Source: Cyclobacterium sp. (lineage in GTDB: Bacteria > Bacteroidota > Bacteroidia > Cytophagales > Cyclobacteriaceae). From it: DNA of 51,686 nucleotides. The position numbers and the translations under genes were made by a program. How positions within the stretch are numbered: the first letter of the stretch is position 1; each line of letters starts with the position of its first letter. Below the pieces are notes generated by a model. That model was given only the letters and a program-made list of their open reading frames with translations. It ran no database searches and was not told where the DNA came from. Below, piece by piece: positions 101 to 44,513 of this stretch. Location of the stretch: positions 1 to 51,686 of the forward strand of contig NZ_JABURL010000047.1 in assembly GCF_014762705.1 (NCBI RefSeq). Direction: 5' to 3'.

Positions 101-2836
101 TTAAATAGCAGCAGCCTCCCCCAACTGGTGAATGGTATTCTGGACCAGGCCTTCCACTTCATCTCCTTTTTCACTTTTTAGCTGGTAATTGATTTCCATC
201 ACCCAGGTGGGTTCGATATCAGGCATTTTTAACTTCACAGATTTACCATCTGCTCCCAGCTCGGCAGCAGTAATGGTCAAATTCTTTTCGTTGTAATGCT
301 TGGAGCCGTATTTTCTGGACCGCAACAAATCCCAGGTGGCCACTGAATAGTTGGCCAAGTCCTGCACACTGCTCTCATCCATTTTTTCCGAAAAAGTCAA
401 CAATATCCCATCCTGCTGCGCCTGAATGCCTACCGGTATATGCACAGGCTTATCGGTCATCCGGATGCGGTAAAGTCCCCCCAACTGGGGCTGGGTAGAT
501 CCCCAGGCGGACAAGCCGCAGAGGTACAGGTGCCCGTCATCCTGATTGAAGCGCCCGCGCATTACACCCGTAGCAAATCGGGGCAAAGGTAACTCGACAA
601 TACCCCCCTGAACCTGTCCGTCCACTTTTTCAAAAGGCACCAGATACACCTTGCCATAGCCATAGGAAAAACTCAATAATTTACCGTTCAGAGGCCCCCA
701 TTTTTCGCTGTCCACCCATAGCAGTTCTGAAGGAGAACGGTCTCTTTCCCTTTCCACCCATACCAGCGGCTGCTCCATCCCGGAATCGGTACTGTCTGCA
801 GGTGGGTCAAAGCCAAACATGTTTCCGTAAAATCCCCCTTCTTCTACCCAGTTGATCCTGTTCATGGGATTCCAGTGTCCTTCCTGATCCGTAACGATAA
901 AGGATCCATCGGGATTAAGACATACACCGTTTGCTGCCCTGAATCCGGTAGCGATAATTTCCGTATGCTCACCGTCCGGGCTAACTTTGATCAGGGTGCC
1001 ATGCTGCGGAACCAATGCTTCCCTGGCATGCCGGGCACTTTTGGCATAATAGAGGTTGCCCTCCGCATCGGCCTGGAGTCCCATGGCAAATTCATGAAAA
1101 TGGTCGGTTACCTGATGGTCGTTGTTGAAACTTTCGTAAAAATCTGCTTCGCCATCCCCATTGTAATCATGCAAACGAACGATTTGATCCCGGCAGGTAA
1201 CGAAAATCTCTTCATCAATCACCTTGATTCCCAATGGCTGGAACAAACCGGAAGCAATTCTTTGCCAGGTCAGGGTATGCTTGTTCTCAGTAAAGCCTTC
1301 CACCAGCCATACATCCCCGTCCGTTGCGCATACCACTGCTTTATTTCGATCCCGGAAAAAGTCCAGTCCACTCAGACGTAGTTGGTTTTTCCAGGGACTA
1401 TTGAAAGGCGGGTTGAGGATATCCACCTGAAAGGCACCCTTCTGCTCTCCCTGCAGAATATTGGTTTCCAATAGTTGCGGAAAACGAGCCGGACCTCCCT
1501 TGGTGTATTGCTCCAGGGAAGCTGGAAGATCCGAGGATTTGGCCCATTCTTCCAGGCCGGAAACGCTTGAAGCGGCCATGAATATTTTAATCTTTACGGG
1601 TTCGGAAGCAGTTATATTTACAACCTGGAAACCATTTTCTTCAGCCAATACTGCTCCCTTTCCAGTCAATGCCACTGCAGCGCCCAGAGGAGCTACCCGC
1701 ATTTTCAAGAGGCCTTCCGCTGGCTCGATATTCAATGTACGGATAAAAACCGGTTGATGCTCCAGTGAATCCAGTCCAAAAGTTTCCAAAACCCGGGCTT
1801 CACCAACCGTATACGTCATGATAAGGCGGTTTTCGTAAGGATAAAGCCCTTCAAAATGTGTCCATTCTTTGGGAAGGGGTCCAAATCTCCTTCCATCTCT
1901 TGCCAAAAATCGGGGATCGGCAAAAGTACCCGTCTCAGGATGTGCCCAGCCCGGACCTGTCTCATTTTCCACATGCAGCTTGCCGATGGTCCTCGGTGAA
2001 ATATTGTGCTTTTCGTTGAACAATATAGCTTCCCAGTCGATAAATCCATCTCCTGTCCAGGCTCCTGCTACACGCATCAGGTCATGGTCAAACATCATCC
2101 AGGCTTTACCTGCAGCTACCCCACCGGGGCCATTGTCCAGCCTTACAGCTATTCCTTTATAGGCAAAATTCGCATCCCCAAAGTCTTCATCGGGAAGGGG
2201 TTGTACCGGGCCGGTGGAGCGTTCCCGGGGAGGAGCACCCTCATCTACCAGTTCATAGGTGTTGATTAAAAAATTCCCGTAATCCATCTCTTCCCAGGGT
2301 TTATATTCCCTGGGCTCGGGCCCTCTACTTGTACCTTCCGGCAAACTGGCCAGGTATTCCTCATTGATGTTAAAATACTGCGCGGGATTTTCCTTTGAAA
2401 CAAAAGTTTCTCTAATGTAATGAATGACATCATATTTTTCCACAGGTGTCAGATTGACCTGAGGAGGCATAGCACCATGCCCGCGAGTGAGGGTTTGGTA
2501 GATGGCATAAGGATCCTCGCCCACTTTAAAGGTGTCGGCCCAAAATTTAAATGCGGTAGGAAGGGAGCCTTCCTGTTCCGGATTTCCGTGACAGGTAATG
2601 CAGGTGTTGGTATAGATATGCTCTCCGGTACGCATGGACTCTCCATGCCGGTCTCCCAATGCTTGAAGCAGGCCCTTGTGGTCGATGTTTTTTTCGTAGT
2701 CCGGTAAATCGGATTCCTGAAGAATAAAACCAGCACCAGCAACGTCCGATACCGACACCTTATCTGAGCTCTTTTGGCAGGCCAGGAATAGCAATACAAT
2801 TATTGGGATGTACCAGGCAGTAAATTTTACATTCAT
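101..2836 (-). CDS. Cytochrome c / DUF6797 / sugar-dehydrogenase-like lipoprotein
   Basis: A 911-aa predicted lipoprotein (lipobox ending at Cys20, FLAC) with three parts. Residues about 65-145 form a small c-type cytochrome: heme motif C79-I-T-C82-H83 and a likely axial Met in HGAMPPQ near 123. Residues about 220-420 resemble the DUF6797 beta domain. Residues about 480-800 resemble the six-bladed propeller of PQQ-dependent glucose/sorbosone dehydrogenases and are followed by an Ig-like C-terminal region that recurs in the azurin protein at 21183. It is last in the SusC-SusD-sulfatase operon. I infer a membrane-anchored periplasmic or surface sugar oxidoreductase that passes electrons to its own heme. 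Whether it binds PQQ cannot be told; a purely structural propeller is the alternative. The domain call is firm, the reaction is not. Confidence 0.85.
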   Translation of the reverse strand: MNVKFTAWYIPIIVLLFLACQKSSDKVSVSDVAGAGFILQESDLPDYEKNIDHKGLLQALGDRHGESMRTGEHIYTNTCITCHGNPEQEGSLPTAFKFWADTFKVGEDPYAIYQTLTRGHGAMPPQVNLTPVEKYDVIHYIRETFVSKENPAQYFNINEEYLASLPEGTSRGPEPREYKPWEEMDYGNFLINTYELVDEGAPPRERSTGPVQPLPDEDFGDANFAYKGIAVRLDNGPGGVAAGKAWMMFDHDLMRVAGAWTGDGFIDWEAILFNEKHNISPRTIGKLHVENETGPGWAHPETGTFADPRFLARDGRRFGPLPKEWTHFEGLYPYENRLIMTYTVGEARVLETFGLDSLEHQPVFIRTLNIEPAEGLLKMRVAPLGAAVALTGKGAVLAEENGFQVVNITASEPVKIKIFMAASSVSGLEEWAKSSDLPASLEQYTKGGPARFPQLLETNILQGEQKGAFQVDILNPPFNSPWKNQLRLSGLDFFRDRNKAVVCATDGDVWLVEGFTENKHTLTWQRIASGLFQPLGIKVIDEEIFVTCRDQIVRLHDYNGDGEADFYESFNNDHQVTDHFHEFAMGLQADAEGNLYYAKSARHAREALVPQHGTLIKVSPDGEHTEIIATGFRAANGVCLNPDGSFIVTDQEGHWNPMNRINWVEEGGFYGNMFGFDPPADSTDSGMEQPLVWVERERDRSPSELLWVDSEKWGPLNGKLLSFSYGYGKVYLVPFEKVDGQVQGGIVELPLPRFATGVMRGRFNQDDGHLYLCGLSAWGSTQPQLGGLYRIRMTDKPVHIPVGIQAQQDGILLTFSEKMDESSVQDLANYSVATWDLLRSRKYGSKHYNEKNLTITAAELGADGKSVKLKMPDIEPTWVMEINYQLKSEKGDEVEGLVQNTIHQLGEAAAI

Positions 2837-2905
2837 AAGATTAAGAAGTATTCTATTTTCAAAATATAATTCAAATCCGACTAATAAAAAACATTTTTTA
2901 TTCGA

Positions 2906-4456
2906 TTAATTGGGGATTCTGCCCCACCAGGGACCTTCGTCCCTGATATCCAGCCACAGCTGCTGCATTTTAGGAATCAATTCCAAATAGGTGGCGTATT
3001 CCTGTTGGGCAATATCAGTGGTTTGGCCAGGATCATTTTTAATGTGGTACAATTCAAAAGTATCCGGAACGGCTGTTTTTAGCCAATCCACAGCAGGAAA
3101 ATTTCCTTCCTTCGGGATAAGGTCAAAAATTTCCCGTCTGGGGGCAAGCTTGCCCACGAGAACATAATCTTCGTAGCGCATGGCCATCTGCGCCATACCC
3201 GGCATGTGGGATGAATTCAATAGAAAAAACCAAATCGGCAAAACCTCTCTTTCGTAGTCCTTTCCCAGAAACGCATTAAATGCATCCGTCCCGTCAATGG
3301 TTCTGTCTTTAGGAACAGCGGCACCTGTCAGTTTACAAATGGTAGGTAAAAAATCGGTACCATTAAATAATTGATTGCTTACTGTTCCGGCAGGAATGTG
3401 TCCCGGCCATCGTATCAATCCCGGTACCCGATGCCCTCCTTCATAGGGAAAACGCTTCATTCCCCGCAAAACTCCAGGGGTGCCAAAGCATTTGTCCCGG
3501 ATGGGGTCCTCCCATTCTCCGTGAGATTCCTCCAGGGTAACTGGGTATTCAGGACCGTTGTCACTGGTAAAAACAACCAGCGTAGAATCCCTCAGGCCCT
3601 GCTTATCAATAAACTGCATCAAGGCACCAAAGCTATCATCTACCTGAGATACAGTACCATAGTATTCCTTTGCATATTGAAAGATATCCTTTTCCGGCCG
3701 CTTCACACCCCCATAGGAAATCTGTTGGGTCAAGCTTCTCAACGCTACCGTATCATACATGCTGGCAAAATCTTTGGGAGGATCTATTGGGGTGTGCGGC
3801 TCGTTGGTAGAAATGATGATAAAAAAGGGTTTGTCTTTATTTCTTTTCCCGGAGATCCAATCTGCGGCTTCCCGGGACACGATGTCTACATACCAGCCTT
3901 CCATAGGCCCTTCGGGAACACCATTCCTTATGAATTTTTCCGGATTCCTGGGTCCTGTCCCAAAAGCATTGACCGAAGTGGCCAGGGAATAGTCAAAACC
4001 CATTTCGTTTACCGAAACTTCCTCCGGAGATTCCAATTTGGACAAATGCCATTTGCCGAAAAATGCGGTTTCATAACCCTCTTCCTGCAGCAATTCAGGC
4101 AGGGTGATTTCATTTCTGTCCAGTGTGGTACCAAAAAAACCAGCAATATTGTAGAATCCGCTGCGATACCCGTTTCTTCCGGTGAGGATAGCAGCACGGG
4201 AAGGGGAGCAAACCGATGCAGCCGAATGCATATCTGTCATCCTTACCCCCTCTTTGGCAAATTGGTCCAAATGAGGTGTTTTGATAAATGGATGGCCGTA
4301 ACTACCCAGATCACCATAACCCAGGTCATCGGTGAGAAAAATGATAATGTTTGGACGGGGCGGAGCTTCATTTTGGGAACGGGCGGAAATGACAGTAAAA
4401 TTCAAAAGAACCAAAAACATCCATATCCATTTTTTATTCCCTATCATAATCCGCAT
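2906..4456 (-). CDS. S1 family sulfatase (arylsulfatase type), CSPSR
   Basis: A 516-aa exported formylglycine sulfatase that hydrolyses sulfate esters, presumably on sugars. Metal-binding D43-D44 lie in LTDDLGYGD, the nucleophile Cys83 lies in C-S-P-S-R followed by AAILTGR, and GKWH (134-137), H221 and D299-N300 (SDNGP) complete the active site. I start at the ATG at 4456 because it is followed at once by a signal-peptide-like stretch ([11 protein letters not shown]... SARSQ). The reading frame is open to 4537, but the extra 27 residues do not look like a leader; 4447 is another possible ATG. It lies between the 586-aa unknown and the cytochrome c gene in the SusCD operon. Activity requires a formylglycine-generating enzyme, which is not encoded in this window. 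The exact sulfated substrate is unknown. Confidence 0.92.
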
Positions 4457-4630
4457 CTTGTCGGGTCTATGTGTCAAGGTAAACCACAATATATTGCCAG
4501 GACAGCAGGTTAAACAAAACCCAAAAGCTACCGGCATCTTTTGGGTATTTGTTGGTGATTATAGTGACTAAAAAGAGGGGTGATTAAGCAACTTTTAGTC
4601 AGCCGGTAGTATGTTTTTCTAATATTTATC

Positions 4631-6391
4631 CTATAAATCAGCCAATCGAGGCAATTTTGACCCATTGGAAGCAGTCATCTTCCTTTCCTGGCGCACCACA
4701 ATGGGCACATAGCCCACTTCCATGCCTGCCGGGGGTGTCAGTATAAGTACAGGATCAATGGCTACCAGTTCTCCCGTTGTAGGTGGAGCCATATAAGTTT
4801 TGTCAATGGTCCAGCTTTTATGGATCTTTTCTACAATGGCCTGTAAGGCTTCTTTTTCCTCCCTGCTCCAGTCAAACTGCTGAAAAGAAGGCTGATCTAT
4901 AAAGCGGTACCATTTGTAGGTTACTGTAGAGCCATCTTTTAAATCAACCGAAAATGCCGCTGAAGCCGGACCTGGATTGGCCCAGGCACCGGTTTCGGGG
5001 GAGGTGTAGGCGAGGTCTTTGTCAATCCTGAAATTTCCCGGAACGATTTCATTACCATCCCTCCAATTGATGTATTGTTCCTCGGTTTCGGCAGAAGCAA
5101 AAGTACTGGCTTTTAGTTCGGCCGGAACGTCCTCGTCCGGAATGGGTATGCGCAGATCTCCTTCCTGTTTGAAATATTGTGGGAAAAGGCCTTTGGCACC
5201 AAAAGGATTTTCCTGCCATTGCAAACCAAATGCATTGGTCTCATTAACGATGGTTTCTACCACATTTTCCAATTTCCCCAAGTGCGTACCACCGGCATTT
5301 AACTGGGCTCCCTGGTCCAGCGAAATTTTCCTGGGGCTGATATCAGGTTTCCAGGAATGGGCTTCACTAAATGCTCCTGATACGGCTTCTCCACCCTTTT
5401 TCCATTTCTTTACCGGATTGAACAAGGCATCTTTGGAGTAATAAGTGACATCCTGGACAAGGACTGATCGGCCATTTTCATCCACCGGAAACTGCAACTG
5501 GGGAATTTTGATAAACAAGTCACCCTCTTCTGTCTTCATTTCGAAGGAGGGAACGGTATTGATTTCCATGGCTCCGCCACCACCCATGGTCCCTTCCCTT
5601 GCATCTAGTCCCATACCTTCTATGGCAGGATAATCTTCGGATAACCTGCTCCACATTTCTGGGATGTAATAGGCCACAGGGCCTTTGAAATTCGCTGCAT
5701 TGAGAAACAAAGTCCAGCTTTGGTCTCCTGTAGGTGGCGGGCCGTCCCTCTTCTCCGTAAGCGGGAGCATCATGTGCGTGTAACCCAAAAACTTACCGTC
5801 CAGATCCTCCACAAAGGTAATCCCATCTGGAGGCACCACTATCCGGTTGCTCAATTGGGCAATACCCAGTTCATCCTCCGGTAGGGCTTCCGCCCGGTAG
5901 AAGAAAGGCCAGCCAGGAGAGGCAATTTCCGAATTGTAGCAATTGGGTACACCGTTCATGCTGAATTTGGGTGGCCCATAATGGTAACGATTTCCGCGCC
6001 AATAACCCAAACCGCCCTCCTGGGTTTGGAAAACACTGGCCCATGTGGGGCCTCTGGGCTCCCAGGTTCGGGCTATGGTACCCTCAGGGCAGCAGGGAAT
6101 ATCCTTGTTATCCGGATTGTCCGGAATAATCCAGTTTCCCGGCAAACCTATCTGGAAGCCCGCCAGTGGTTTTTCCACCAAAGGCCAGACGGCAGTATAA
6201 AAGCCAATCCCAGCTCCAAAGCCATCCGGCCGCCTCGGCGAACTGTAGCCAATGTACCCGTGAAGTCCATTTGCTCTTTGCGAAATCTCATACCTGACAC
6301 TTGTTGATTTTTTGTTTATGGGCCCGGATAAATGAACGATCATTCCACTGATTCCCAATAACAATGCACTTATTAAAATTCGTAGATACAT
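4631..6391 (-). CDS. Unrecognised secreted protein of the SusCD operon, 586 aa
   Basis: I do not recognise this family. The first ~25 residues are a hydrophobic leader (MYLRILISALLLGISGMIV), so the product is exported or anchored. The mature part is rich in Trp, Gly and Pro and has blocks that look like a beta-rich fold, for example GYSSPRRPDGFGAG, ARTWEPRGPTWASVFQT and GLGYWRGNRYHYGPPKF. A cysteine pair (CC in IPCCPEG, near 100) and a single Cys in PNCYNSE could form disulfides. It starts 26 bases after the SusD stop and precedes the sulfatase gene, the position where surface glycan-binding proteins or operon-specific enzymes usually sit in polysaccharide loci. The sequence shows no known catalytic signature, so both roles stay open. 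Confidence 0.8.
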   Translation of the reverse strand: MYLRILISALLLGISGMIVHLSGPINKKSTSVRYEISQRANGLHGYIGYSSPRRPDGFGAGIGFYTAVWPLVEKPLAGFQIGLPGNWIIPDNPDNKDIPCCPEGTIARTWEPRGPTWASVFQTQEGGLGYWRGNRYHYGPPKFSMNGVPNCYNSEIASPGWPFFYRAEALPEDELGIAQLSNRIVVPPDGITFVEDLDGKFLGYTHMMLPLTEKRDGPPPTGDQSWTLFLNAANFKGPVAYYIPEMWSRLSEDYPAIEGMGLDAREGTMGGGGAMEINTVPSFEMKTEEGDLFIKIPQLQFPVDENGRSVLVQDVTYYSKDALFNPVKKWKKGGEAVSGAFSEAHSWKPDISPRKISLDQGAQLNAGGTHLGKLENVVETIVNETNAFGLQWQENPFGAKGLFPQYFKQEGDLRIPIPDEDVPAELKASTFASAETEEQYINWRDGNEIVPGNFRIDKDLAYTSPETGAWANPGPASAAFSVDLKDGSTVTYKWYRFIDQPSFQQFDWSREEKEALQAIVEKIHKSWTIDKTYMAPPTTGELVAIDPVLILTPPAGMEVGYVPIVVRQERKMTASNGSKLPRLADL

Positions 6392-6417
6392 ATTGTTTTA
6401 TAAGATTTATTGCATTC

Positions 6418-7896
6418 CTATTCCACACCTGTCCGGGTATCCCACCAGAGCTGTATGCCATAAAAGATATCCTCTTCTTCAATATCAGAAGGAAAGCTTT
6501 GGTTATGGGCAATTTCATTTGCTGGATAAGACATGCGGAAAGGTGGCCGGTTATGGCTGCTGGCATAATCATTGGAAACTTTGTCCAGCAAAGGTACATC
6601 TGTTCTTCTCACCTCGGCCCATGCTTCCACACTTTGCTTGTAAAGGGCAATCCAATTCTGTAACCGGATTTTTTCAAGATTAGTTGAGGAGCCGGAATCC
6701 CAGGCCACACCTGAATTTTGCAGGTAGGCATTGATCATTTCCGGTTCGACACCATTTTCTTCCAGGGATACTTCAATGCCTTTCTCATAGGCTTCCTGGC
6801 TACTGCCTCCGGAAACCAGCCCCCTTTCATAAGCCTCCGCCTTGATAAACCATACCTGAGATGCATTCATAAAGGGGGAAAAACCCATATCATCGTAACC
6901 AAAGCGATCCCCAATATGGGACACATTTGCATTGGAGTTCATCGGGTCGCTGGTCTGCCCTATGCCCATTTTGTAACCGTTGAAAACGCCATTCTGATTC
7001 CTGTCCGCATAAACCGGAAGGCGGGGATCGTCCAGGTTTTCCAGTAGGTTTATCAAATCAAAATTGGTCCTGTACTGGTCATTTTTATTGGTGGGAGTTC
7101 CCAATCTTTGCCTCCAGGGCTCTATGTTGGAGCTTACTCCCGGCCAGTTTAAATAAGCATTGTCCGTGTGTTCCTCGAATACCGGATAGGTAGCGGGATT
7201 CCCTAAAATTTCACCTATCACCGCTGCTGCATCCTGAGGAGCGACAGAAGACATGCGCATGGCTACTCTCAGCCTAATGGAATTGGCAAACTTTTTCCAT
7301 TTCATGATGTCTCCTCCATAAATAAAATCCCCTACTCCCAGTGCCATGCCATTGGGATCGAGCATGGTATTGGCTGCTGCCAATTCAGAAAGAATTTTAT
7401 TGTACACCACCTCCTGAGAATCAAATTCAGGGCTCAATATCCCCTCTGCATCCAATTGAAAGGCTTGCGTATAAGGGATATCTCCCCACATATCCGTTAC
7501 CTGATGGGCCGTATAGGCCTTCATGATCAGGGATACGGCCTCCAGATTTTGATTTCCCTCTTCCCTGGCGATGTTACCTGCATCCACAAAATACGCCATG
7601 GCCCTATACAGGTTATCCCATTGTCCGTTATTGATATCTACCCGAAACTCGTAATCTCCTGCGCCAATGGCAGCCAGCTGACCAGACCAGGTTCCCGCAT
7701 AATAGATTCCTATCCGCTCGCCAAACAACTGACCGGCCACTACTGTCATGCCTGCACCAAGTACATTACTGGCGGGCACCTCTGATGGCTGGTTGGGGTT
7801 GATGTTCATTTCATTCCAATCTTCCGTACATGCCGTGCATAGCAGCACAGCAAGTAAAACCAAACCGGTTAATTTAGATGTTATTATATGTTTCAT
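6418..7896 (-). CDS. SusD/RagB-family surface glycan-binding lipoprotein (SusD-like_2)
   Basis: A 492-aa outer-membrane lipoprotein that forms the lid over its SusC partner and captures glycan at the cell surface. A hydrophobic leader ends in a lipobox at LLCTAC, followed by the N-terminal SusD-like_2 signature EMNINPNQPSEVP. TPR-like helical segments follow, and the C-terminus holds the conserved ending with RRTDVPLLDK and YPANE. I place the start at 7896 because that ATG begins the leader; the frame is open to 7950 but the extra residues would run into the SusC stop. It lies 50 bases downstream of susC on the minus strand, so the two are almost certainly cotranscribed. The ligand cannot be read from sequence; the sulfatase downstream suggests a sulfated glycan. 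Confidence 0.93.
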   Translation of the reverse strand: MKHIITSKLTGLVLLAVLLCTACTEDWNEMNINPNQPSEVPASNVLGAGMTVVAGQLFGERIGIYYAGTWSGQLAAIGAGDYEFRVDINNGQWDNLYRAMAYFVDAGNIAREEGNQNLEAVSLIMKAYTAHQVTDMWGDIPYTQAFQLDAEGILSPEFDSQEVVYNKILSELAAANTMLDPNGMALGVGDFIYGGDIMKWKKFANSIRLRVAMRMSSVAPQDAAAVIGEILGNPATYPVFEEHTDNAYLNWPGVSSNIEPWRQRLGTPTNKNDQYRTNFDLINLLENLDDPRLPVYADRNQNGVFNGYKMGIGQTSDPMNSNANVSHIGDRFGYDDMGFSPFMNASQVWFIKAEAYERGLVSGGSSQEAYEKGIEVSLEENGVEPEMINAYLQNSGVAWDSGSSTNLEKIRLQNWIALYKQSVEAWAEVRRTDVPLLDKVSNDYASSHNRPPFRMSYPANEIAHNQSFPSDIEEEDIFYGIQLWWDTRTGVE

Positions 7897-7946
7897 TTTA
7901 AGGACATTTAGCAAATTATCAATTTTTCCCTTTTTGCAGGCAACCC

Positions 7947-10900
7947 TCAAAGGGAAATCCGCAAGTTAAATCCATAGGAGCGGTTTGTTGGAGGCATAAA
8001 GTTTTCAAACCCGGTACCTGCTTCTCCACCGCCCATCTGAGATGCGGATTCCGGATCAAGTCCAAGCTCCCTGGCTCTTGCACTTCGGTGCAGAATGGCC
8101 AGATTTCGGCCAAAAACAGAGACGTTTACATTTTGTAATTTCCAGATATTGAAACGATAGCCAAAGGTCAATTCCCGAAGCTTGATAAAGGAACCATCCA
8201 CAATAGAGTATTCATGGTTGTTCCATACCCAGGAACCGTTGTAATAATCCTGAGCTGAAATGCGGATATCATTTGGGGAGCCATCTCCTTTTACGCCATC
8301 TACAATAATTCCTTCTTCCCTGACATTATTTTGAACGGTGTTCTCAAAAGCCCCGGTAGGGTAGGAATGCCACATTGTTGTACTAAAGAAATCGCCGCCC
8401 ATTCGGAAGTCAAACAAACCGCCAAAGGTGAAATTGCGGTACCTGAAGCTGTTTTGAATGCCGCCAATCCAGTCCGGGGTAACATTTCCCAAAATCACCT
8501 GTTGATTGGTGGTCATGGGGGTACCGTTGGGACTGATCATGATATTGCCATTATCATCCCGTACATAGGGAAGGCCGCTCAGGTCGCCCCAGGGCTGTCC
8601 TGGAGTGCCCACCAGGCGCACTCCGCCAAAACCGGAGCTGATAGTGATATTTTCCAAGCCCTGATACAATGACACCACCGTGCTGGTATTTTTTGCCCAG
8701 TTTACCGTGGCATCCCAGGAAAAGTCTCCTCTTTGCATCATCCTGGCCCGTAAGATCAATTCTATACCCTTGTTTTCGATCTCAGCCGCATTGATCAATT
8801 GAGATGCATAGCCGGTGGATCTGGCTGTTGGCACCTGGAGAATCATGTTCTCCGTTACCTGCCGGTAATAGGTGGCATCCAGAGATAGCTTGTCATCAAA
8901 AAACCGTAAATCAGCTCCCAACTCAAAGGAAGTAGTCATTTCGGGTAAAAGGTTGGTTGGTGGTTTTACCGCCGTGGGGGTGAATAAGGAAATATTGTTA
9001 AAAGAAGTCGTTCCATAGGTACCCATAAGCTGGTAAGGGTCTGTATCAGATCCTACCTGAGCCAAACTGGCACGCACCTGGGCATGGCTGAAGATAGACG
9101 AATTAAAATCCAGGGCATCCGAAAGCGTAAGGGCCATGTTTACCGAAGGATAGAAATAAGAACGGTTTTCTACAGGCAAGGTAGAACTCCAGTCGTTTCT
9201 TCCAGTGGCACCCAGGAACAAATAGCCTTTATAGCCCAGTGTTGCAGAGGAATAGATACTGTAGGTTTCCCGAAGGCTTTCAAACATACCTGTACCAGGT
9301 GTACCCCTTACATTGGAAATATTGAATAGGTCCGGAACTGCCAGGTCGGGAGCACTTAGGGAAAGGGAGTTGAATTTGTTCTGCCTGAAATTACCCCCTA
9401 CCAAAGCTACCAGTGAGAAATCATTGGCAAATTGCTTATTGATGTTCAGCCTGATATCGCTGTTAAATTCCTGTCTGCTTTGATCTGAAAGCGAGAACTG
9501 TCCTCCTCTATTATTGTTGATGTTGGCTCTGGTTCTGGAGAGGGTAATGGATTCCCGCTCTTCATTGTAATAATCCATGCCCGTAACCCAATTGGCCGAA
9601 AGCCAATCATTAAGCTGGTAGTCTATATTGACATTTCCAAAAAACCGCTGCCGGTTCATGCTGTTGGTGTTTTCCAGCTCATAATAGAAATTATTGGCGT
9701 TCAGATTGTATCCACTGCCCATTTCATTGCCATGCTCCTCATAAACTTTTTTAACCTCGTCCAGGGGAATATTCCGGAAAGCGCCCCAGGCCAGCTTGGT
9801 CATGGAACCATAAGAAACCACCGGGATATTATCACTGAAGCGGTTGACATAATTGAAGTCTGTACTTACCTTCAGTTTGTCGGTTGGCAGCAAAGTAAGA
9901 CTTGCATTAAACGTGTTAACGGTTTGGTCAGTATTGAAAAAGGTACCATTCATCTGCCGGTTGGAGAAGGCAACCCGACCATAGGCTTGCTGGCCCTTTG
10001 CAGTTACCGCCACCTGATTGACAAAGTTTCTTCCAGTCTGAAAGTAGTGATCATGGATATTATTAGGCATGGATTCCCAGGGGCTGTTAGGGCCTTTAAC
10101 CCATTGGTCCAGCAGCAATCCGGCATCATAGCGAGGACCCCATGAAGTGGCGTTCTCATTAATTCCACCGCCTATACCGTCTACATAGTTGTAACTGTTT
10201 TGCTTGGCATATTCGTTGTAACTCAGGTTGGAGCCGGGATTGTTTTCCAAATATTGCTGCCAATCGTACTCTCCGCCCCTTTGTCCGGGTCCGTATTCGT
10301 TTTGGAAATTCATAAAAAAGCTGGGGACGTCGAAAACCATAGAAGAGTTCAGTTCCACTCCCAGGCCCATTTTTCCTTGCTTCCCTTTTTTGGTTTCAAT
10401 TAAAATGACACCATGTGTGGCCCTGTTGCCATAAAGTGCGGCTGCATTGGCTCCCTTCAACACAGTAAGGGAAGCAATGTTTTCCGGATCGATATCGGCC
10501 GCTGTATTGCCATAATCCAACCCACCTGCACCTCCCAGGTTGCTGCTGCTGTTGTCGATGGGAATCCCATCTACCACAAAAAGAGGCTGATTACCCGAAA
10601 AAGAAGCATTTCCCCTGATGACTATTCTGGAAGATGCTCCTACCTGGGAGCCGCTGTTGGTCACCTGTACCCCGGCGATTTTTCCACTCAGGGAGTTCAC
10701 CAGGTTAAAATCATTCGCTGAAGTCAGGTCTTCCGGTTTCAATGCCTGGACGGTATAGCCCAATTCCTTTCTTTCACGCTGAACACCGAAAGCGGTAACC
10801 ACCACCTCGCCCAGGGCCTGGGAATCTTCCCGCAACACCACATCAAGGGTACTGCGGCCATTGATGTCCAGGTTTTGGGATTCAAAACCGATAAAGGAGA

Positions 10901-11135
10901 AGGCCAGGCGCTGTGAACCTTCGGGGACATTGAGGTCGTACTTTCCTTCGACATCCGAAACCGTGCCGGTAGTGGTACCCACCACCAATACACTTACACC
11001 GGGCAAGGCATCGCCGGCTTCATTTTGCACTGTGCCGCTCACCCGGTTCTGTGCGTAGGCACCGGTGAACAACAATAAGAGCCCAAGGCACAAAGAAGCC
11101 TTGCGGGCCAGGGCATGTAGGGTAAAGTTTTTCAT
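7947..11135 (-). CDS. SusC/RagA-family TonB-linked outer membrane importer
   Basis: A 1062-aa TonB-dependent transporter that imports oligosaccharides across the outer membrane. The order is a signal peptide (ending FTGAYAQ), a carboxypeptidase-D-like regulatory domain (GTVQNEAGDALPGVSV, residues about 30-110), a plug with the RagA signature FVVDGIPIDNSS, and a long 22-strand-type barrel ending in an aromatic-rich SYGFNLRISL typical of outer-membrane proteins. I chose the ATG at 11135, which starts the leader MKNFTLHALARKASLCLGL; the frame is open to 11189. It is the first gene of the minus-strand operon that continues with SusD, the unknown 586-aa protein, a sulfatase and the cytochrome c protein. 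No sigma/anti-sigma pair adjoins it, and there is no extra N-terminal STN domain. Confidence 0.95.
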   Translation of the reverse strand: MKNFTLHALARKASLCLGLLLLFTGAYAQNRVSGTVQNEAGDALPGVSVLVVGTTTGTVSDVEGKYDLNVPEGSQRLAFSFIGFESQNLDINGRSTLDVVLREDSQALGEVVVTAFGVQRERKELGYTVQALKPEDLTSANDFNLVNSLSGKIAGVQVTNSGSQVGASSRIVIRGNASFSGNQPLFVVDGIPIDNSSSNLGGAGGLDYGNTAADIDPENIASLTVLKGANAAALYGNRATHGVILIETKKGKQGKMGLGVELNSSMVFDVPSFFMNFQNEYGPGQRGGEYDWQQYLENNPGSNLSYNEYAKQNSYNYVDGIGGGINENATSWGPRYDAGLLLDQWVKGPNSPWESMPNNIHDHYFQTGRNFVNQVAVTAKGQQAYGRVAFSNRQMNGTFFNTDQTVNTFNASLTLLPTDKLKVSTDFNYVNRFSDNIPVVSYGSMTKLAWGAFRNIPLDEVKKVYEEHGNEMGSGYNLNANNFYYELENTNSMNRQRFFGNVNIDYQLNDWLSANWVTGMDYYNEERESITLSRTRANINNNRGGQFSLSDQSRQEFNSDIRLNINKQFANDFSLVALVGGNFRQNKFNSLSLSAPDLAVPDLFNISNVRGTPGTGMFESLRETYSIYSSATLGYKGYLFLGATGRNDWSSTLPVENRSYFYPSVNMALTLSDALDFNSSIFSHAQVRASLAQVGSDTDPYQLMGTYGTTSFNNISLFTPTAVKPPTNLLPEMTTSFELGADLRFFDDKLSLDATYYRQVTENMILQVPTARSTGYASQLINAAEIENKGIELILRARMMQRGDFSWDATVNWAKNTSTVVSLYQGLENITISSGFGGVRLVGTPGQPWGDLSGLPYVRDDNGNIMISPNGTPMTTNQQVILGNVTPDWIGGIQNSFRYRNFTFGGLFDFRMGGDFFSTTMWHSYPTGAFENTVQNNVREEGIIVDGVKGDGSPNDIRISAQDYYNGSWVWNNHEYSIVDGSFIKLRELTFGYRFNIWKLQNVNVSVFGRNLAILHRSARARELGLDPESASQMGGGEAGTGFENFMPPTNRSYGFNLRISL

Positions 11136-11874
11136 ATGGTTATAATTTGTTTTTTTAGCGGTCACATGGAATCTCGCAACGTAAATCATCCTCTTTTTTG
11201 TCGATTACTTCATGCTCGATTTCATATGCGTTGGTTAAGAGTTAAAGGATAGGCTAAGATAGATTGTAGTCTGCTTTTTTGTATCCTACATCTTAACCAA
11301 AAAATATGGTATCTTATCCGAAATGGGTTTATGGCAGTGGAAATTGCCTGTAGGCAAGATTGGAGGTTTTAATTAATGGATAAAAGTCTTATGCTCAACA
11401 GGTAAAAAAACGAATTTACGGAATGGCGGGTCATTCTATTTCAAAGGACTTGAGTGCTACCCTAAGTCATCGGAGTAATTCAGCTTGATTTTCAGCATTT
11501 TAGGCTTACAGTTCAGGGGTTTTCATTGAGTTTTTATCCAATATAAATAAACATTAAAAGTAAAAATAAACAATAATTGCATGGTTTACTGAGGGCCATA
11601 AACCACTTGAGCACCCCCTATAATTTATTCAAGGCATCAGGACCATCGTTATTCAACTTAAATTACTTATGCAATTTGCCAAAAGGAATACCTTTATTTC
11701 TGGGAAATAAATTGCCCAAAGCTATCCGGACAATATAGTCAGAAAAAGGATGCTTCGAATCCACATAAAATCCAAAAGTAATCCCAGGGAATTACACAAA
11801 ATCCAAAAAGAGCTGTGCTCTTGTATTGATTTTTACAAAAAAAGTTGTTCATTTCGCTTCAGTTCGTTTTTAGT
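11136..11874. other. Divergent intergenic region between susC and the CrtO-like gene
   Basis: About 740 bases with no convincing gene. It must hold the promoter of the minus-strand SusC operon and probably that of the plus-strand block. I found no clear Bacteroidota -7 element (TAnnTTTG) at a good distance for SusC. Visible structure: an imperfect inverted repeat 11233-11240 / 11291-11298 (ggttaaga / tcttaacc, with aggat / atcct just inside), a small hairpin ttgcc-tgta-ggcaa near 11346, and a 7-bp inverted repeat tggttta / taaacca at 11582-11605. None has a T-run, so none is called a terminator. Confidence 0.5.
11233..11298. repeat. Imperfect inverted repeat upstream of susC
   Basis: The arms ggttaaga (11233-11240) and tcttaacc (11291-11298) are exact complements, and aggat / atcct just inside them extends the match with a small bulge. 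It lies about 100-160 bases upstream of the susC start on the minus strand. It could be an operator or a leader RNA structure; chance is also possible in this AT-rich stretch. Confidence 0.3.
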
Positions 11875-13604: not shown

Positions 13605-13611
13605 TTAAAGA

Positions 13612-14927: not shown

Positions 14928-15026
14928 AAAATGAAATAAAAACGGATCAATCGGTAATTATTTCCTTAGGCGCTTGTCCACATCAGGCGGAAAAACAAGT
15001 ACTATAGGAAATAAAAAAGGAAAAAA

Positions 15027-16157: not shown

Positions 16158-16174
16158 GATTTTAAACGTAAGCG

Positions 16175-16585
16175 ATGTCCAGCAAACTTCAAGAAGAAAA
16201 GAATCAGCGGAAATGTCCTGTTTCAGGTATATTAATGGGGATGCTTTTTTTAGTTTTCTTTTCATTCCTTAGTCTCCAGCTACCAGGTACTTTATTCGAT
16301 ATCGGGGATGCTTCCATCTATCCACCACAGGTCTCCCAAACTGATCCGCAACAGGTCCCGGAAAAAACGGCTGGTTACTTTCGGGAGGAAATAAAAGAAA
16401 AAGAGGAGGAGAATAAGGAAGAAAAATCATCCAGCCAAAGCCTAACTACGGCGGGTATTTCCGGTGGATTCCGTGGGCAGCAACCCATCCTGAAATCCTT
16501 CCTGTTATTTAATCCTTCATTCATCTTTTATCACAGAGTATCTTTGTACCTACTCTTTAAAAGCCTTCGTTTAGACCTGGATTAA
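16175..16585 (+). CDS. Small membrane-anchored protein upstream of dabA
   Basis: A 136-aa protein I do not recognise. It has a single strong hydrophobic segment (about 19-38, ILMGMLFLVFFSFLSL), then a charged, Lys/Glu-rich stretch near 70-88 (EEIKEKEEENKEEK) that could form a helix, and a second moderately hydrophobic C-terminal part (FLLFNPSFIFYHRVSLYLLF). It ends 67 bases before dabA on the same strand. Small unknown genes are sometimes found beside DAB operons, so it could be an accessory subunit, but it could equally be unrelated. The reading frame is convincing mainly by position and composition. Confidence 0.5.
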   Translation: MSSKLQEEKNQRKCPVSGILMGMLFLVFFSFLSLQLPGTLFDIGDASIYPPQVSQTDPQQVPEKTAGYFREEIKEKEEENKEEKSSSQSLTTAGISGGFRGQQPILKSFLLFNPSFIFYHRVSLYLLFKSLRLDLD

Positions 16586-16652
16586 GAGCAGAGAGAAAAC
16601 TAAGTTTTTTCAGTCAATACAATTTATTAGTCCACCTTAAATAATCTGAATT

Positions 16653-19142: not shown

Positions 19143-19146
19143 GGCC

Positions 19147-21024: not shown

Positions 21025-21086
21025 TTCAGGTACCATGAAACCGGGCTTGACGGAGGCTATAGATTAACTACATGGGATTGCAGATG

Positions 21087-21148
21087 ACAAAAAATGAAAC
21101 GCAAAATAGCCCCAAAAAATTGGGGCTATTTTGCGTTTCATTTTTTTT
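21087..21148. terminator. Perfect 27-bp bidirectional terminator hairpin
   Basis: The left arm at 21089-21115 and the right arm at 21120-21146 are perfect complements with a 4-base loop of A. The core is GC-containing (gccccaa / ttggggc) and the outer part ends in A-run/T-run, so it has a T-tract in both directions (eight T on plus, six on minus). It sits between the convergent dabB stop (21024) and the azurin-domain gene stop (21183) and should end transcription from both sides. Confidence 0.92.
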
Positions 21149-21182
21149 AGACACATTTCAAAGGAACGACCATGCTCATTTC

Positions 21183-23282
21183 TTATTCGGTTACCTTCAT
21201 AATCCCCTGCATCACGTACGCATGTCCCGGAAAGGTACACACATAGGTATAATCACCGGGAACCATGGGAGCCTCAAAATAGATGGTTTCTGAACTTTCA
21301 GGTGAAAGGATATTGGTATGAAAAAGCACATCCTCAGAATTGGGTATATAGTTTTTCTGAGAACCTTCCAAGCCCATCTCTAAAGCCTCCTCTCCCACCT
21401 CGATGGCCGTGTTTGGCATCACGATCACCAGGTTGTGAAGCATGTCATCGTTGTTATTGAACGTGATTTGTACTTTGCTTCCAGCTTTTACTTCGAAAAA
21501 ATCTTTATCATATTTCAATCCCGGCCTTGTGCCCATTGTTACGCGCTCGTCGGGTCCATTGGTCCAGGACTCAGGCATTTCCGTCATGCGTTTACTTCGA
21601 TTTGAGTTAGCGTTATCTGGGGCTGGTTCATTGGAGGCCGCAACGGCTACGTTTTGGTGCGCTGCATGGGGTTTGGCAGCGGTTTGCCTGATTTCAGAAA
21701 GATCCACTTTTTCCCCGGTCGGAATTTGATTCAGGGTATAATAACCTACAGCATGCAATAAACCCATGCCCTCCTTTGACCTGATTCCTTCAGCATTAAT
21801 TTCATGGATATAGCCCTCCTTCAGTCCATCTACTACCAATCTTACTTTTAGCCCATCCTCAGAGACCAGGGCTGCTTTTAGCAGCAGGTCTTCCAGTTCG
21901 ATTACCGGGCTGCCGTAATTGTGGTGGTACTTGTAATTGAAACTGGATAATTGATAAGCATCCATATTTTGGGCTGCGGATGCATCTACCGGCTTGGTAA
22001 ATTCCAATTCAAACCCGTCTGGTCGGGCTTTTGCCGTTTTTATTTCGAAGGGTACTTTGCCTGTCCAAACCAATCTTTGCAAGCCAAAGGGCTCCTTGCC
22101 TGTAGAACTCCAGCCCCTGCTGGTCATGCCCACAAAGACCGATGCATCTTTTCCCCACGCCATCCGCAATATTCCGGAAGAAAAACCCTCTCTGAAAGGG
22201 AAAGCTACACCTTGATAGACACCGTTTACTTTTTCCAGGTAGACGCGTACAATCTTGCTGTGTCCCTGATCACCTACGAAAAGTTGATCCGTAAAAGGCC
22301 CAAAAGCTCCACCGGAATTGTCCAATAGTATATCTGAAGTAGAAATACCCATCAGCCCATGTGGCAACCAAACCGCAGGGGTCTTGAATCCGGGAATATC
22401 CGCAGCAACTTTTGACATGGGCTCCCCTGTATCTGGTATGTCCTCTGGTTTTAACTTAACAGGAGATTCTTCCAAATGAGTCCAGACCAGGCCTTCGGGA
22501 TTCCCCACGAAGTCGCCGGTTTCCACATGGGTAATCCTGCCTGAACCAACCCAATCCCCTTGGTTTTCAGCATAGAACACATCTCCTTCTGCATTATATC
22601 CCATACCTGCAGGTGATCTCATACCGGTAGCTACCGGTTTCATGTCTCCCTCGGGAGAAACCTTCATCATCCAGCCCCGCCATTTGGCCAGGCTGGCGCC
22701 GTGTCCTATCCAACCCAAATTCAGGTTAACGAGCATGTCTCCTTCAGGGGTGAATAAGGGACCATAGGAGTATTCGTGGTAATTCCCTGAAAGGGGCCAG
22801 GAAACAATGGTCTCATATGTATCCGCTCTCCCATCTCCGTTTCTATCTGTCAATTTGGTAAGTTCAGACCTTTGACTGGCAAATAAACTACCCTCATGGT
22901 AGGCCAGTCCCAGAGGTTCGTGCAACCCTTCAGCAAATCGGGTAAAACGGGGAATACGCGTTCCAGTCATATAAGGATTCTCTACCAGCCAGACTTCTCC
23001 CCTTCGGGTAGCCACACCCAAACTTCCATCCGGAGTTACAGCCAAACCACCCACTTCCAGTTCTATCCCATCAGGAATGGGAACAGTTACAATGGAATAA
23101 TAATCCTGCTCCTTCGGTGCACCAGCATCCGATTGGGCAGGCTCCTGAGCTTGTAAGTCGAGTGACAGCTGCAGTAAAAGGGCAACCATTGACAAGCTAA
23201 AAAATTTACCTTTTGTAAATTTTTTTCGGTTAAAAACCAAAGTACAAGTCCGGGTAAATAGGCTATTATTATCAATTTTCAT
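21183..23282 (-). CDS. Sugar-dehydrogenase-like propeller with C-terminal azurin domain
   Basis: A 699-aa exported protein (leader ending LQLSLDLQAQ). Residues about 65-430 look like a PQQ-dependent sugar dehydrogenase-type propeller (GLAVTPDGSLGVATRRGEVWLVE, GLAYHEGSLFASQR, MRSPAGMGYNAEGDVFYAENQGDW). Residues about 430-545 form an Ig-like region shared with the cytochrome c protein at 101. The last ~120 residues are an azurin/plastocyanin-like copper domain: His in DDMLHNLVIVMP and C682, H687, M691 in CTFPGHAYVM, with the exact azurin spacing of +5 and +9. It is last in the eight-gene GH106/sulfatase operon, after the DUF1080 protein. I infer sugar oxidation with electrons passing to the built-in copper site. 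PQQ binding is not provable here. Confidence 0.88.
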   Translation of the reverse strand: MKIDNNSLFTRTCTLVFNRKKFTKGKFFSLSMVALLLQLSLDLQAQEPAQSDAGAPKEQDYYSIVTVPIPDGIELEVGGLAVTPDGSLGVATRRGEVWLVENPYMTGTRIPRFTRFAEGLHEPLGLAYHEGSLFASQRSELTKLTDRNGDGRADTYETIVSWPLSGNYHEYSYGPLFTPEGDMLVNLNLGWIGHGASLAKWRGWMMKVSPEGDMKPVATGMRSPAGMGYNAEGDVFYAENQGDWVGSGRITHVETGDFVGNPEGLVWTHLEESPVKLKPEDIPDTGEPMSKVAADIPGFKTPAVWLPHGLMGISTSDILLDNSGGAFGPFTDQLFVGDQGHSKIVRVYLEKVNGVYQGVAFPFREGFSSGILRMAWGKDASVFVGMTSRGWSSTGKEPFGLQRLVWTGKVPFEIKTAKARPDGFELEFTKPVDASAAQNMDAYQLSSFNYKYHHNYGSPVIELEDLLLKAALVSEDGLKVRLVVDGLKEGYIHEINAEGIRSKEGMGLLHAVGYYTLNQIPTGEKVDLSEIRQTAAKPHAAHQNVAVAASNEPAPDNANSNRSKRMTEMPESWTNGPDERVTMGTRPGLKYDKDFFEVKAGSKVQITFNNNDDMLHNLVIVMPNTAIEVGEEALEMGLEGSQKNYIPNSEDVLFHTNILSPESSETIYFEAPMVPGDYTYVCTFPGHAYVMQGIMKVTE

Positions 23283-23337
23283 ACGCTAATCTTCCAATAA
23301 TATTGGTTATTTAAATTACTTCTCGCTATTGTTATCA

Positions 23338-25182
23338 CTACCAGATAAGGCTGTATTTAATTTGACCTTCCTCTCCCATTTCGGATAATGGGACTATGAG
23401 TTCCTGCCCTGCATCAGTATCCCTTATCAATGTATTTAGAAAAATGGTCTCAGGTAGTTTCACATAAAATTGACCCTGATTGACCCTGTATATACCATCA
23501 CCGAACGGCTCAATTTTTTCGGCAGCAAGCATTCTGGCCCATATATCAGCGGTTTTTTGAGGATTACTAAAGCTGATGGTGCGGGTCAAAGCTTTTCCAT
23601 CCATCTCAGGTTCAAAGAAATCCCTCACTTTGATTTGGCCAAATTCATAGCTGAAAGTGGGGCGCCTGTCCCGATTTAAGGCATAACCCTGTATCTGAAA
23701 CAACTCACTGCTGAGGGAGTCCGGCCAGGGACTGCTATTTTGGTCAAGCCTGGCAATGGCAGGCCCTCCGGGAAGTTCAATCAAGGCTCCATTTGGAACC
23801 ATCAATTGGGATTGCCCTCTTTGCCTCCACATGGGGGAAGTATCCAGAAATCCCCCCCTCCAAAAACTCAGCAAAGAACCTTGCTGCAAATCATAGGCAA
23901 AATTTGGACCCTCTGGCTCCCCTACACTGACGGTGTGGGTTTTAACTTCGTTTCCATGCTCCAAAAATCCTCTAAACACTATGGGTTCATTGAAGGGTTC
24001 TAAATAGAAAGGTTTTTGTACCACATGTTCAATATAAGAGTTAGGATCGTGTAGGGAGCTTTGTTTGATTCCCGGCCCTGCAATAAAAAAACCGAGTTGT
24101 GGCCTTCTACCAGGATAATTGTTTTTATAAAATATCAACTTAAATGGGACAGATCCCTGGGACAGAGCTACCGCATTACTTCTGGGAACATTTCCGGGGA
24201 ATTGTACTTCATCGCTCAGGATGTTTTCTCCATTGACATAAAGACTGGTTTTGCCAAATGCATTCAGGGAAAAGGTATAGGTTCCGGACTGGGGAATTTC
24301 CAGCTTCCCCGAAAACACATACGCAAAATCAAGGATTCCATGGCCCAGATCCCAGGTAATTTGGTTCAGGCTGCCTTTCTGATCCGGGCTCCTATCCTGG
24401 AATTCTTCAGGGGATTGGAACTTCCCCTTGAAATAGGCATACTCAAGATCGGTGATTGGAGGTACCGGATTATCAAATAGCTTATAGCTGATATTTCTGA
24501 TCGCCACAGGACCGTGGTCTCCCTGAATCATAATGGGCCCTCTGGGCTTTTCATCTTCAAAGATGGCAGATCGGGTGGGGCCTGTCACCTCCACGTTTTC
24601 ATGGACCAAAACCCCATTCAAATAGACCTGATTGAATTTTGCATTTTTTACTTTATTGCCCGCAGCATCAAATACGGGGGCTTCAAAATTGATCTTTAAA
24701 TGCTGCCACAAACCCGGGGCCTTACTTGCATTGGTCCGGGGAGCCTTGCCTTCAAAGCCCTGTTGATTTTCTTCGTCATAGCGCTGGTATATCCCTCCGG
24801 CATCTCCAAAGCTGGGATGGTTTTTACCCCAGCTATCCAGAATTTGAATCTCATAACGTCCCTGAAGGTAAATGCCGGAATTGGAACCTTTAGGAACCAT
24901 AAACTCCAGTTCCAATTCCATATCTCCATGTTCAAAACCGGATACCAGGTGTTCCCTGTTTTTCGCTGTGGGTTCATTTACCAGGATTCCGGTTCCTTCA
25001 GATGTGGAAAGAAAGGTGTCGTGCTGCCAGTCGGCTCCAACCCCTCCTACAAGCTTCCAGTTTTTCGGAAGTTTACCAAACTTTTTCAGGTCTTCAAATG
25101 AGCTAACTTCCTGGGCACTCAGTGCATGGGCAAAAATCCAGCTGAAAAGTAATAACAAAGTAGCGTTTTTTCTATTGATCAT
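23338..25182 (-). CDS. DUF1080 / PA14-like / DUF6797-like secreted protein
   Basis: A 614-aa exported protein (leader RKNATLLLLFSWIFAHALSAQ). Residues about 40-235 form a DUF1080 (3-keto-disaccharide hydrolase) jelly roll, with GSNSGIYLQGRYEIQILDS and the DAGGIYQ block as hallmarks. Residues about 275-385 are PA14-like (SGTYTFSLNAFGKTSLYVNG). Residues about 415-610 resemble the DUF6797 region of the protein at 101 (NFAY..., SFWRGGFLDTSPMW, ..TRTISFSNP). DUF1080 enzymes have been shown to cleave 3-keto-glycosides made by sugar 3-dehydrogenases, so its place just upstream of the azurin-domain oxidoreductase is suggestive. The ATG at 25182 starts the leader; the longer frame would overlap the upstream sulfatase stop at 25260. 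Glycosidic function is inferred. Confidence 0.85.
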   Translation of the reverse strand: MINRKNATLLLLFSWIFAHALSAQEVSSFEDLKKFGKLPKNWKLVGGVGADWQHDTFLSTSEGTGILVNEPTAKNREHLVSGFEHGDMELELEFMVPKGSNSGIYLQGRYEIQILDSWGKNHPSFGDAGGIYQRYDEENQQGFEGKAPRTNASKAPGLWQHLKINFEAPVFDAAGNKVKNAKFNQVYLNGVLVHENVEVTGPTRSAIFEDEKPRGPIMIQGDHGPVAIRNISYKLFDNPVPPITDLEYAYFKGKFQSPEEFQDRSPDQKGSLNQITWDLGHGILDFAYVFSGKLEIPQSGTYTFSLNAFGKTSLYVNGENILSDEVQFPGNVPRSNAVALSQGSVPFKLIFYKNNYPGRRPQLGFFIAGPGIKQSSLHDPNSYIEHVVQKPFYLEPFNEPIVFRGFLEHGNEVKTHTVSVGEPEGPNFAYDLQQGSLLSFWRGGFLDTSPMWRQRGQSQLMVPNGALIELPGGPAIARLDQNSSPWPDSLSSELFQIQGYALNRDRRPTFSYEFGQIKVRDFFEPEMDGKALTRTISFSNPQKTADIWARMLAAEKIEPFGDGIYRVNQGQFYVKLPETIFLNTLIRDTDAGQELIVPLSEMGEEGQIKYSLIW

Positions 25183-44508: not shown

Positions 44509-44513
44509 AAAAA

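Follow-up and report, generated by a model that had tools for sequence, protein, structure and literature searches.

Why do two sulfatase operons on a single contig of Cyclobacterium sp. end in proteins with built-in electron carriers, when polysaccharide utilization loci (PULs) are usually read in terms of hydrolysis, lysis and desulfation? The contig (NZ_JABURL010000047.1, assembly GCF_014762705.1, our C38) belongs to a 6.08 Mb genome and was analyzed whole, over 51,686 nucleotides, as the window; its sequence ends at base 1. Open reading frames (ORFs) and Pfam matches confirmed the initial annotation's two minus-strand sulfatase operons, the first ending in P0001 and the second in the neighbors P0003 and P0002. 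Our best reading is a sugar dehydrogenase of the periplasm whose built-in electron carrier can be exchanged and which sulfated-glycan loci have recruited. We consider it probable that the proteins form an exported dehydrogenase module, in which a six-bladed propeller of the GSDH/AA12 superfamily is combined with DUF6797 and a carrier of single electrons, either type-1 copper or c-type heme. On balance, we also favor seeing in P0001, P0002 and P0003 versions of one module, with the carrier attached at different places.

Domain anatomy of the three proteins

101..2836, minus strand: P0001, with a lipoprotein-like signal (LFLAC, read by eye), cytochrome c, DUF6797, propeller and C-terminal beta domain
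2414..2638, minus strand: cytochrome c domain of P0001 (Cytochrome_CBB3, residues 67-141, E 3.7e-10)
1784..2098, minus strand: DUF6797 domain of P0001 (residues 247-351, E 3.4e-30)
122..1405, minus strand: propeller and C-terminal beta domain of P0001 (profile comparison)
21183..23282, minus strand: P0002, propeller and azurin-like copper domain (ORF, Pfam, model)
21708..23105, minus strand: propeller and C-terminal beta domain of P0002 (model and profile comparison)
21192..21524, minus strand: type-1 copper domain of P0002 (Copper-bind, residues 587-697, E 3.8e-9)
23338..25182, minus strand: P0003, DUF1080, PA14 and divergent DUF6797 (longest ORF extends to 25278)
24487..25062, minus strand: DUF1080 (3keto-disac_hyd) domain of P0003 (residues 73-264, E 6e-29)
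24121..24330, minus strand: PA14 domain of P0003 (residues 317-386, E 7.5e-9)
23623..23898, minus strand: divergent DUF6797 domain of P0003 (residues 461-552, profile-profile match)

P0001 had been described as an N-terminal c-type cytochrome followed by DUF6797 and a propeller, and this architecture holds, the first two domains by Pfam and the propeller by profile comparison. The cytochrome scored 40.4 bits as class I cytochrome c (cut-off 27), with CITCH at residue 79 and a candidate distal Met for the heme in GHGAMPPQ (read from the translation); DUF6797 (PF20601) scored 105.2 bits (cut-off 24.9). Pfam matches to SGL, DUF7133 and GSDH within residues 529-733 were weak, each under its cut-off. 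P0002 opens with a signal-peptide-like stretch, read by eye, and matches DUF7133 at residues 112-243 (29.1 bits, cut-off 27). Its C-terminal azurin domain was likewise confirmed: the type-1 copper match (PF00127) reached 37.3 bits (cut-off 21.2), and the His-Cys-His-Met set is complete, with H616, C682, H687 and M691, which we take to be the azurin ligand positions, near-invariant across the family alignment. The closest relative of P0002 among the matches listed is a protein of Cyclobacterium plantarum (96% identity).

For P0003, we prefer the Met at 25182, as initially annotated, over the start at 25278, since a signal-like stretch (by eye) begins there. DUF1080 (PF06439) scored 101.9 bits (cut-off 26.8) and keeps its NSG motif. 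The C-terminal DUF6797 fell under the Pfam cut-off (23.2 bits, cut-off 24.9); profile-profile alignment of the fused proteins' DUF6797 with the C-terminal part of the P0003 family gave 93.1% (hhalign, E 3.3e-7), with four control profiles at 0.4% or less, so the proposed DUF1080-PA14-DUF6797 order stands. The AlphaFold2 model of P0003 had a predicted local distance difference test score (pLDDT) of 89.4 and a predicted template modelling score (pTM) of 0.83.

The propellers of P0001-type (33 sequences) and P0002-type (101 sequences) proteins are homologous (hhalign 100%, E 3.5e-55). DUF6797 and propeller therefore form one protein in operon 1 and two neighboring proteins in operon 2. The claim that one domain set occurs once fused and once split holds for DUF6797, the propeller and the presence of one carrier; it fails for the carrier's identity and for DUF1080 and PA14, which occur in the split version only. 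Because DUF6797 and propeller are fused in P0001, P0003 and P0002 are expected to associate and probably form a complex. A gene with DUF1080 and/or PA14 lies directly upstream in 68 of the 80 P0002-type genome loci, and in four more if an intervening ORF or a split or cut frame is allowed; eight lack a partner. Five Runella loci without a partner carry a malate-dehydrogenase-like gene, identified by eye, at that place. One scan confirmed at least 574 relative stretches of the module, and DUF6797 was present in 29 of 395 phylum genomes sampled.

The propeller is related to sugar dehydrogenases and has a modified pocket

The propellers had been called sugar-dehydrogenase-like, which fold and homology bear out. 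The AlphaFold2 model of P0002 (pLDDT 88.1, pTM 0.85) retrieved pyrroloquinoline quinone (PQQ) sugar dehydrogenases as its top Protein Data Bank (PDB) matches in Foldseek (2ism, 6jt5, 3a9g, 3das and 1c9u; template modelling (TM) score by target length 0.55-0.73, root-mean-square deviation 4.1-8.2), and its copper part matched auracyanin. The structure alignments were thinned at 88% and 85% identity, with two P0002-type rows skipped for a missing motif. The six propellers of this kind in the genome, taken together, scored 98.9% (E 1.1e-17) when aligned with a profile built from 15 true GSDH. By its six blades and its homology to PQQ sugar dehydrogenases, the fold places the propellers in the GSDH/AA12 superfamily; the GSDH family proper (PF07995) gave 15.8 bits for P0001 (cut-off 25) and no match at E 0.1 for P0002.

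Several observations weigh against the dehydrogenase reading. The P0002 family alone reached only 68.5% (E 4.6e-5) against the GSDH profile. In the profile alignment, R222 and R373 of P0002 align with GSDH R222 and R346, and other pocket positions differ: Q90-G-G of GSDH is L120-H121-E122, N223 is S223 and R348 is missing. The column of GSDH H154, which by motif we take to be the catalytic His, holds E170, with H169 adjacent, and a paralogue in the same genome (L008) has no His there. Measured against the PQQ and catalytic set of sGDH, presumably His144, Arg228, Asn229 and Arg406/408, two Arg are kept, the His is one residue off register, Asn is replaced by Ser and one Arg is missing. The search for a sugar/PQQ pocket was thus answered in part: two Arg and a nearby invariant His remain, and several canonical positions have changed. 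With these differences, we do not accept the module as a PQQ enzyme proper.

HHIP, a non-enzyme not known to bind PQQ, shares the propeller fold and appeared among the P0002 Foldseek matches, as did nitrous oxide reductase (poor superposition). Together with the partial loss of canonical PQQ positions, this would fit a propeller that is a non-catalytic sugar-binding or scaffold domain whose carrier serves another enzyme. We find this quite improbable, given the repeated fusion to intact carriers and the invariance of the charged residues: across the 101 P0002-type propellers, an unthinned set that contains near copies, E76, R93, H121, E122, Q137, R138, H169, R222, N240, H308, D338 and R389 are 100% conserved, and R94 and R373 98-99%.

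Biosynthesis of PQQ also failed to speak for a PQQ enzyme. No pqqC was found in 60 family genomes, where the control was silent too, and pqqE was above cut-off in none of 395 genomes, this one included (18 weaker matches, all elsewhere). Because 31 of 41 family genomes, again including this one, hold GSDH matches, the lack of PQQ synthesis cannot separate the readings; PQQ, if the cofactor, would be imported. In CcPDH, the AA12 enzyme of Coprinopsis cinerea, PQQ is held by R273, R430, R621, N431, H363, H539, H560 and a Trp-Asn loop; Arg430, Arg621 and His363 are shared with bacterial enzymes, Lys377 is not, and Arg273 and further histidines are used (PMC6881789). As this enzyme shows that PQQ sites vary, it is possible that PQQ is bound in the rebuilt propeller site. 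The rebuilt pocket may accommodate PQQ in a novel manner, or a different cofactor.

Copper and heme carriers replace one another

Among 20 P0002-type loci hand-picked from genomes of the same family, the C-terminal carrier was copper in 13 and heme in 7; a DUF1080-PA14 gene neighbors 19 of them, and the twentieth (L090) has a cut partner. A propeller tree of 68 domains requires three copper/heme changes, and five changes among four carrier states. It was built without the carrier domains by a quick method with support from the Shimodaira-Hasegawa-like approximate likelihood ratio test (SH-aLRT) only; 149 rows thinned at 75% identity gave 70, two partial or uncertain rows were removed, one truncated row was left unlabelled and, on the basis of gene order, five were manually labelled as having azurin in trans. 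The eight heme-type relatives of P0002 cluster in a single clade (SH-aLRT 100), joined to three copper-type rows (99); one copper/heme change accordingly falls within the P0002 family, where the DUF1080-PA14 partner was retained. The tree is unrooted and says nothing on the direction of change.

Each of the 33 fused DUF6797-propellers has a carrier, 29 in the same protein and four in a nearby gene (three within 4 kb, plus L093, whose azurin gene lies two genes upstream on the same strand, beyond the cut-off of the scoring script). The exchange of one carrier for another of unrelated type, while everything else stayed in place, is what most strongly suggests that the module moves electrons; it also suggests a plug-in role for the carrier in a little-studied oxidizing machine.

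The same variety was found within this genome, where genome searches and domain scans gave six modules in six arrangements: cytochrome-DUF6797-propeller (P0001); DUF1080-PA14-DUF6797 beside propeller-azurin (P0003/P0002); DUF1080-PA14-(divergent DUF6797) beside propeller-cytochrome c (L007, contig C90); a separate azurin gene beside DUF6797-propeller (L006, also C90); DUF6797-propeller-cytochrome c (L008, C9); and cytochrome-propeller, with a DUF6797-like N-terminus seen in the alignment only (L009, C122). By choice, this count excludes, as another family, DUF7133/HEAT-type propeller matches on C64, C103, C34, C67, C5 and C18. Two of those matches were scanned and proved to be DUF7133 proteins with other parts. 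Relatives add a further form, in which azurin is fused to a DUF6797-like domain and the propeller is the next gene (L123-L126). At another locus (L111), neighboring genes of about 1,440 codons, at 5681 and 10634 on opposite strands, encode PA14, cytochrome c, DUF6797 and propeller.

Most likely, the module oxidizes sugar outside the cytoplasm, and its own copper or heme relays the electrons to oxidases. Oligosaccharides would enter through SusC/SusD, sulfatases and the rhamnosidase would expose sugars, and the DUF6797-propeller pair (in operon 2, the putative P0003/P0002 complex) would oxidize a sugar hydroxyl, with DUF1080 and PA14 as possible sugar-binding or processing extras. Electrons would then run through the built-in copper or heme to heme-copper oxidases; the genome has three COX1 oxidase genes. 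Since P0001 contains a heme, its reduction by sugars would be a direct substrate assay.

Electrons could instead feed a copper oxygenase or a surface acceptor, in the way AA8-AA12 pyranose dehydrogenase drives lytic polysaccharide monooxygenases (LPMOs). CcPDH does combine heme, PQQ propeller and a carbohydrate-binding module (PMC4332668, PMC6881789); no LPMO-family Pfam match was found among the 26 window ORFs scanned, a search confined to the window, and we rate this destination as very unlikely.

Which carbon is oxidized, and is DUF1080 needed?

If the propeller is a sugar dehydrogenase, gene neighbors give conflicting hints on its chemistry: MR_MLE neighbors suggest oxidation at C1, while DUF1080 and some isomerase-like neighbors suggest C3. 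The initial annotation raised the latter as a possibility, with DUF1080 cleaving a 3-keto-glycoside made by the propeller, coupled to desulfation. The DUF1080 domain of P0003 retrieved 4qhz as best structural match, with the 3-keto-sugar hydratase/eliminase structures 8v31 and 9fbe further down (E 3.2e-5 and 2.0e-4; TM by target 0.47 and 0.42). Weak PDB matches to bacterial toxins were also among the structure-search rows.

That P0003 keeps NSG and matches 8v31 and 9fbe agrees with cleavage, as do xylose-isomerase-like genes near P0001-type genes in L094, L116, L117, L119 and L120 and a Gfo/Idh/MocA gene in L094 (these and the MR_MLE and RraA-like identities below come from one scanned member per cluster). 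DUF1080 has also been proposed to act with a periplasmic 3-dehydrogenase in lactose use; a characterized DUF1080 protein cited there is an endo-xanthanase/lichenase (PMC9007349).

Conservation points the other way. Among 45 partner proteins (44 of the 48 listed partner rows, plus P0003), NSG is kept in 18, changed to NAG or DAG in 5 and lost in 22, while the propeller residues stay 98-100% conserved. By comparison, 11 of 12 aligned single-domain DUF1080 copies of this genome keep it (16 stretches were fetched, 12 scoring high enough for alignment). NSG is itself without proof as the DUF1080 active site. Because 22 of 45 partners have lost NSG while the Arg, Trp and Gly columns of the partners' DUF6797 part stay invariant, we suggest that the core consists of the DUF6797-propeller pair and that DUF1080 can be dispensed with. 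DUF1080 as an essential chemical step is weakened, and an obligate 3-keto-glycoside cleaver is not what the family shows, even if the window copy keeps its motif. Many Larkinella, Spirosoma and Dyadobacter relatives (loci within L142-L212) have a partner DUF1080 without NSG. The operon of P0001 moreover has no DUF1080, the 26 window ORFs scanned include no GMC 3-dehydrogenase, and the related CcPDH is thought to oxidize C1 (PMC4332668). We therefore judge the 3-keto form of the dehydrogenase reading unlikely.

Oxidation at C1 would yield aldonolactones or aldonates, to be used by an enolase-superfamily dehydratase. The operon of L009 (6959-16992 in that locus) contains FGE, three sulfatases, the cytochrome-propeller gene and an MR_MLE gene, whose start overlaps the propeller stop and whose product has a Tat-like signal; three relatives (L127, L128 and L129) have counterparts with FGE, MR_MLE and sulfatases and the same overlap. 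In Dyadobacter loci, MR_MLE and RraA-like genes lie downstream of P0002 relatives, but with two genes and a SusCD pair between, and neither window operon has an MR_MLE gene. This form remains somewhat doubtful, if less so than oxidation at C3.

What stands of the coupled scheme of desulfation, oxidation and cleavage is the fold, the GSDH homology, the carrier motifs and their exchange, and a local operon linkage; a general coupling to sulfatases and an obligate DUF1080 cleavage step do not.

The link to sulfatases is local

In this genome, three of the six modules lie beside sulfatases, whereas 7.4% of bases have a sulfatase within 5 kb (P 0.007 in a binomial test; 0.001 to 0.02 over 2 to 10 kb), a test that rests on six modules chosen by the analyst. 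Chance as the cause is disfavored by this test, though six modules are few. Relatives give a different picture, and one that weighs against a module dedicated to sulfated glycans: a sulfatase lies within the fetched flanks of 12 of the 80 P0002-type loci and near 5 of the 33 fused modules. A sulfated-glycan-specific module is thus rejected as a general rule. Seven of the 80 share a tight operon with a sulfatase, all in Cyclobacterium, Algoriphagus or Lunatimonas and all with GH106. The initial annotation had asked for a survey of sulfatase-rich loci for these domains; co-occurrence is borne out by these seven and the L009-type operon, and not as a general rule. We regard the association as genuine yet confined to certain lineages and loci, the module being a more general one that sulfated-glycan loci have recruited.

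Relation to known systems

CcPDH (AA8-AA12-CBM1) resembles the module in its superfold, its fused heme and sugar-binding domain and its intramolecular transfer to heme (PMC4332668); it differs in being fungal, with a heme b of AA8 type, and the available part of that paper mentions neither DUF6797 nor a copper version. Bacterial soluble aldose/glucose dehydrogenases (GSDH, PF07995) share fold and sequence homology with P0001 and P0002, and cytochrome fusion occurs among them too; P0001 and P0002 retain the canonical GSDH pocket motifs only in part. GSDH members with a CxxCH motif were seen in the same bacterial family at L223, L236, L238 and L239, N-terminally in L223 and L238.

The PVC-type heme-binding CxxCH proteins (TIGR02604, PF23500/DUF7133) give a weak propeller match, well below the TIGR02604 cut-off (46 and 25.2 bits against 122.2). 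The two DUF7133 proteins scanned in this genome, one of which (L010) carries a copper domain, differ in having HEAT and GDSL or ThuA parts. LacABC, a lactose 3-dehydrogenase with a DUF1080 hydrolase, offers periplasmic oxidation followed by DUF1080 as an idea (PMC9007349), but here a propeller stands in place of the GMC-type LacA. Breakdown of glycans through 3-keto intermediates is reportedly also the subject of a 2024 Nature paper.

The initial annotation knew of no earlier description of such a redox arm in sulfated-glycan loci, a claim that is partly pre-empted: in freshwater Verrucomicrobia (2017), sulfatase genes often adjoin other cytochrome-c-domain proteins, for which a role in carbohydrate metabolism was suggested (PMC5615132). 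Those proteins belong to other families (PSCyt/PSD), and propeller-carrier exchange is not mentioned in the accessible part of that report. The open-access literature yielded nothing joining sulfatases, azurin or cytochrome and PULs, or PQQ sugar dehydrogenases with an azurin domain. Fused heme-propeller sugar dehydrogenases (CcPDH), GSDH with CxxCH and cytochrome proteins beside sulfatases are already known; as far as our searches of that literature show, what is new is the exchange between copper and heme, the core with DUF6797, and the occurrence of both fused and split arrangements.

More tentatively, the module could define an undescribed class of periplasmic sugar dehydrogenases in Bacteroidota, with a GSDH-like propeller, a rebuilt, conserved charged pocket, a DUF6797 partner and interchangeable copper and heme plugs, repeatedly recruited into sulfated-glycan loci as a respiratory side-arm. 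If so, glycan use would gain a step that yields energy, with sugars oxidized outside the cytoplasm and their electrons fed to respiration; DUF6797 would gain a setting, and copper and heme could be compared in the same role in natural pairs.

Operon context and other features of the window

2906..4537, minus strand: sulfatase of operon 1 (Pfam, E 9.9e-62)
4631..6391, minus strand: w4631, 586 amino acids, no Pfam or NCBIfam match
6418..7950, minus strand: SusD-like lipoprotein (Pfam)
7947..11189, minus strand: SusC-like TonB-dependent receptor (Pfam)
25260..33347, minus strand: five sulfatase genes upstream of P0003 (ORFs and Pfam)
33355..36285, minus strand: GH106 alpha-L-rhamnosidase, first gene of operon 2 (E 1.2e-140)
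31..55, minus strand: terminator-like hairpin 3' of P0001, 10-pair stem
21094..21141, no strand assigned: 20-pair inverted repeat 3' of P0002, terminator-like on both strands

On the minus strand, operon 1 reads SusC, SusD, w4631, sulfatase, P0001, and operon 2 reads GH106 rhamnosidase, five sulfatases, P0003, P0002 (ORF list and Pfam); intergenic gaps in operon 2 are below 80 bases, and the longest ORFs overlap in two pairs. Both operons were said to end before a strong terminator. Hairpins do follow both, but only the one after P0002 is strong: it was found as six versions of one repeat (0.6 expected), whereas the 10-pair stem after P0001 is weak on its own (23 such sites found in its stretch against 17.9 expected).

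The window had no Rfam match and no tRNA. A defense system was considered and rejected, P0001, P0002 and P0003 having no PADLOC match. The genome as a whole has 24 DUF1080 matches and 66 sulfatase places. In L074/L113 and L118, w4631 has relatives next to SusCD and P0001-type genes. Between the sulfatase operons, on the plus strand (16653-21024), lies a DabA-like inorganic carbon transporter gene followed by that of a proton-antiporter-type membrane subunit. A third minus-strand cluster (36447-49608), which has no propeller module, encodes a PAS histidine kinase, two sulfatases, a Sde182-like protein, SusD and SusC.

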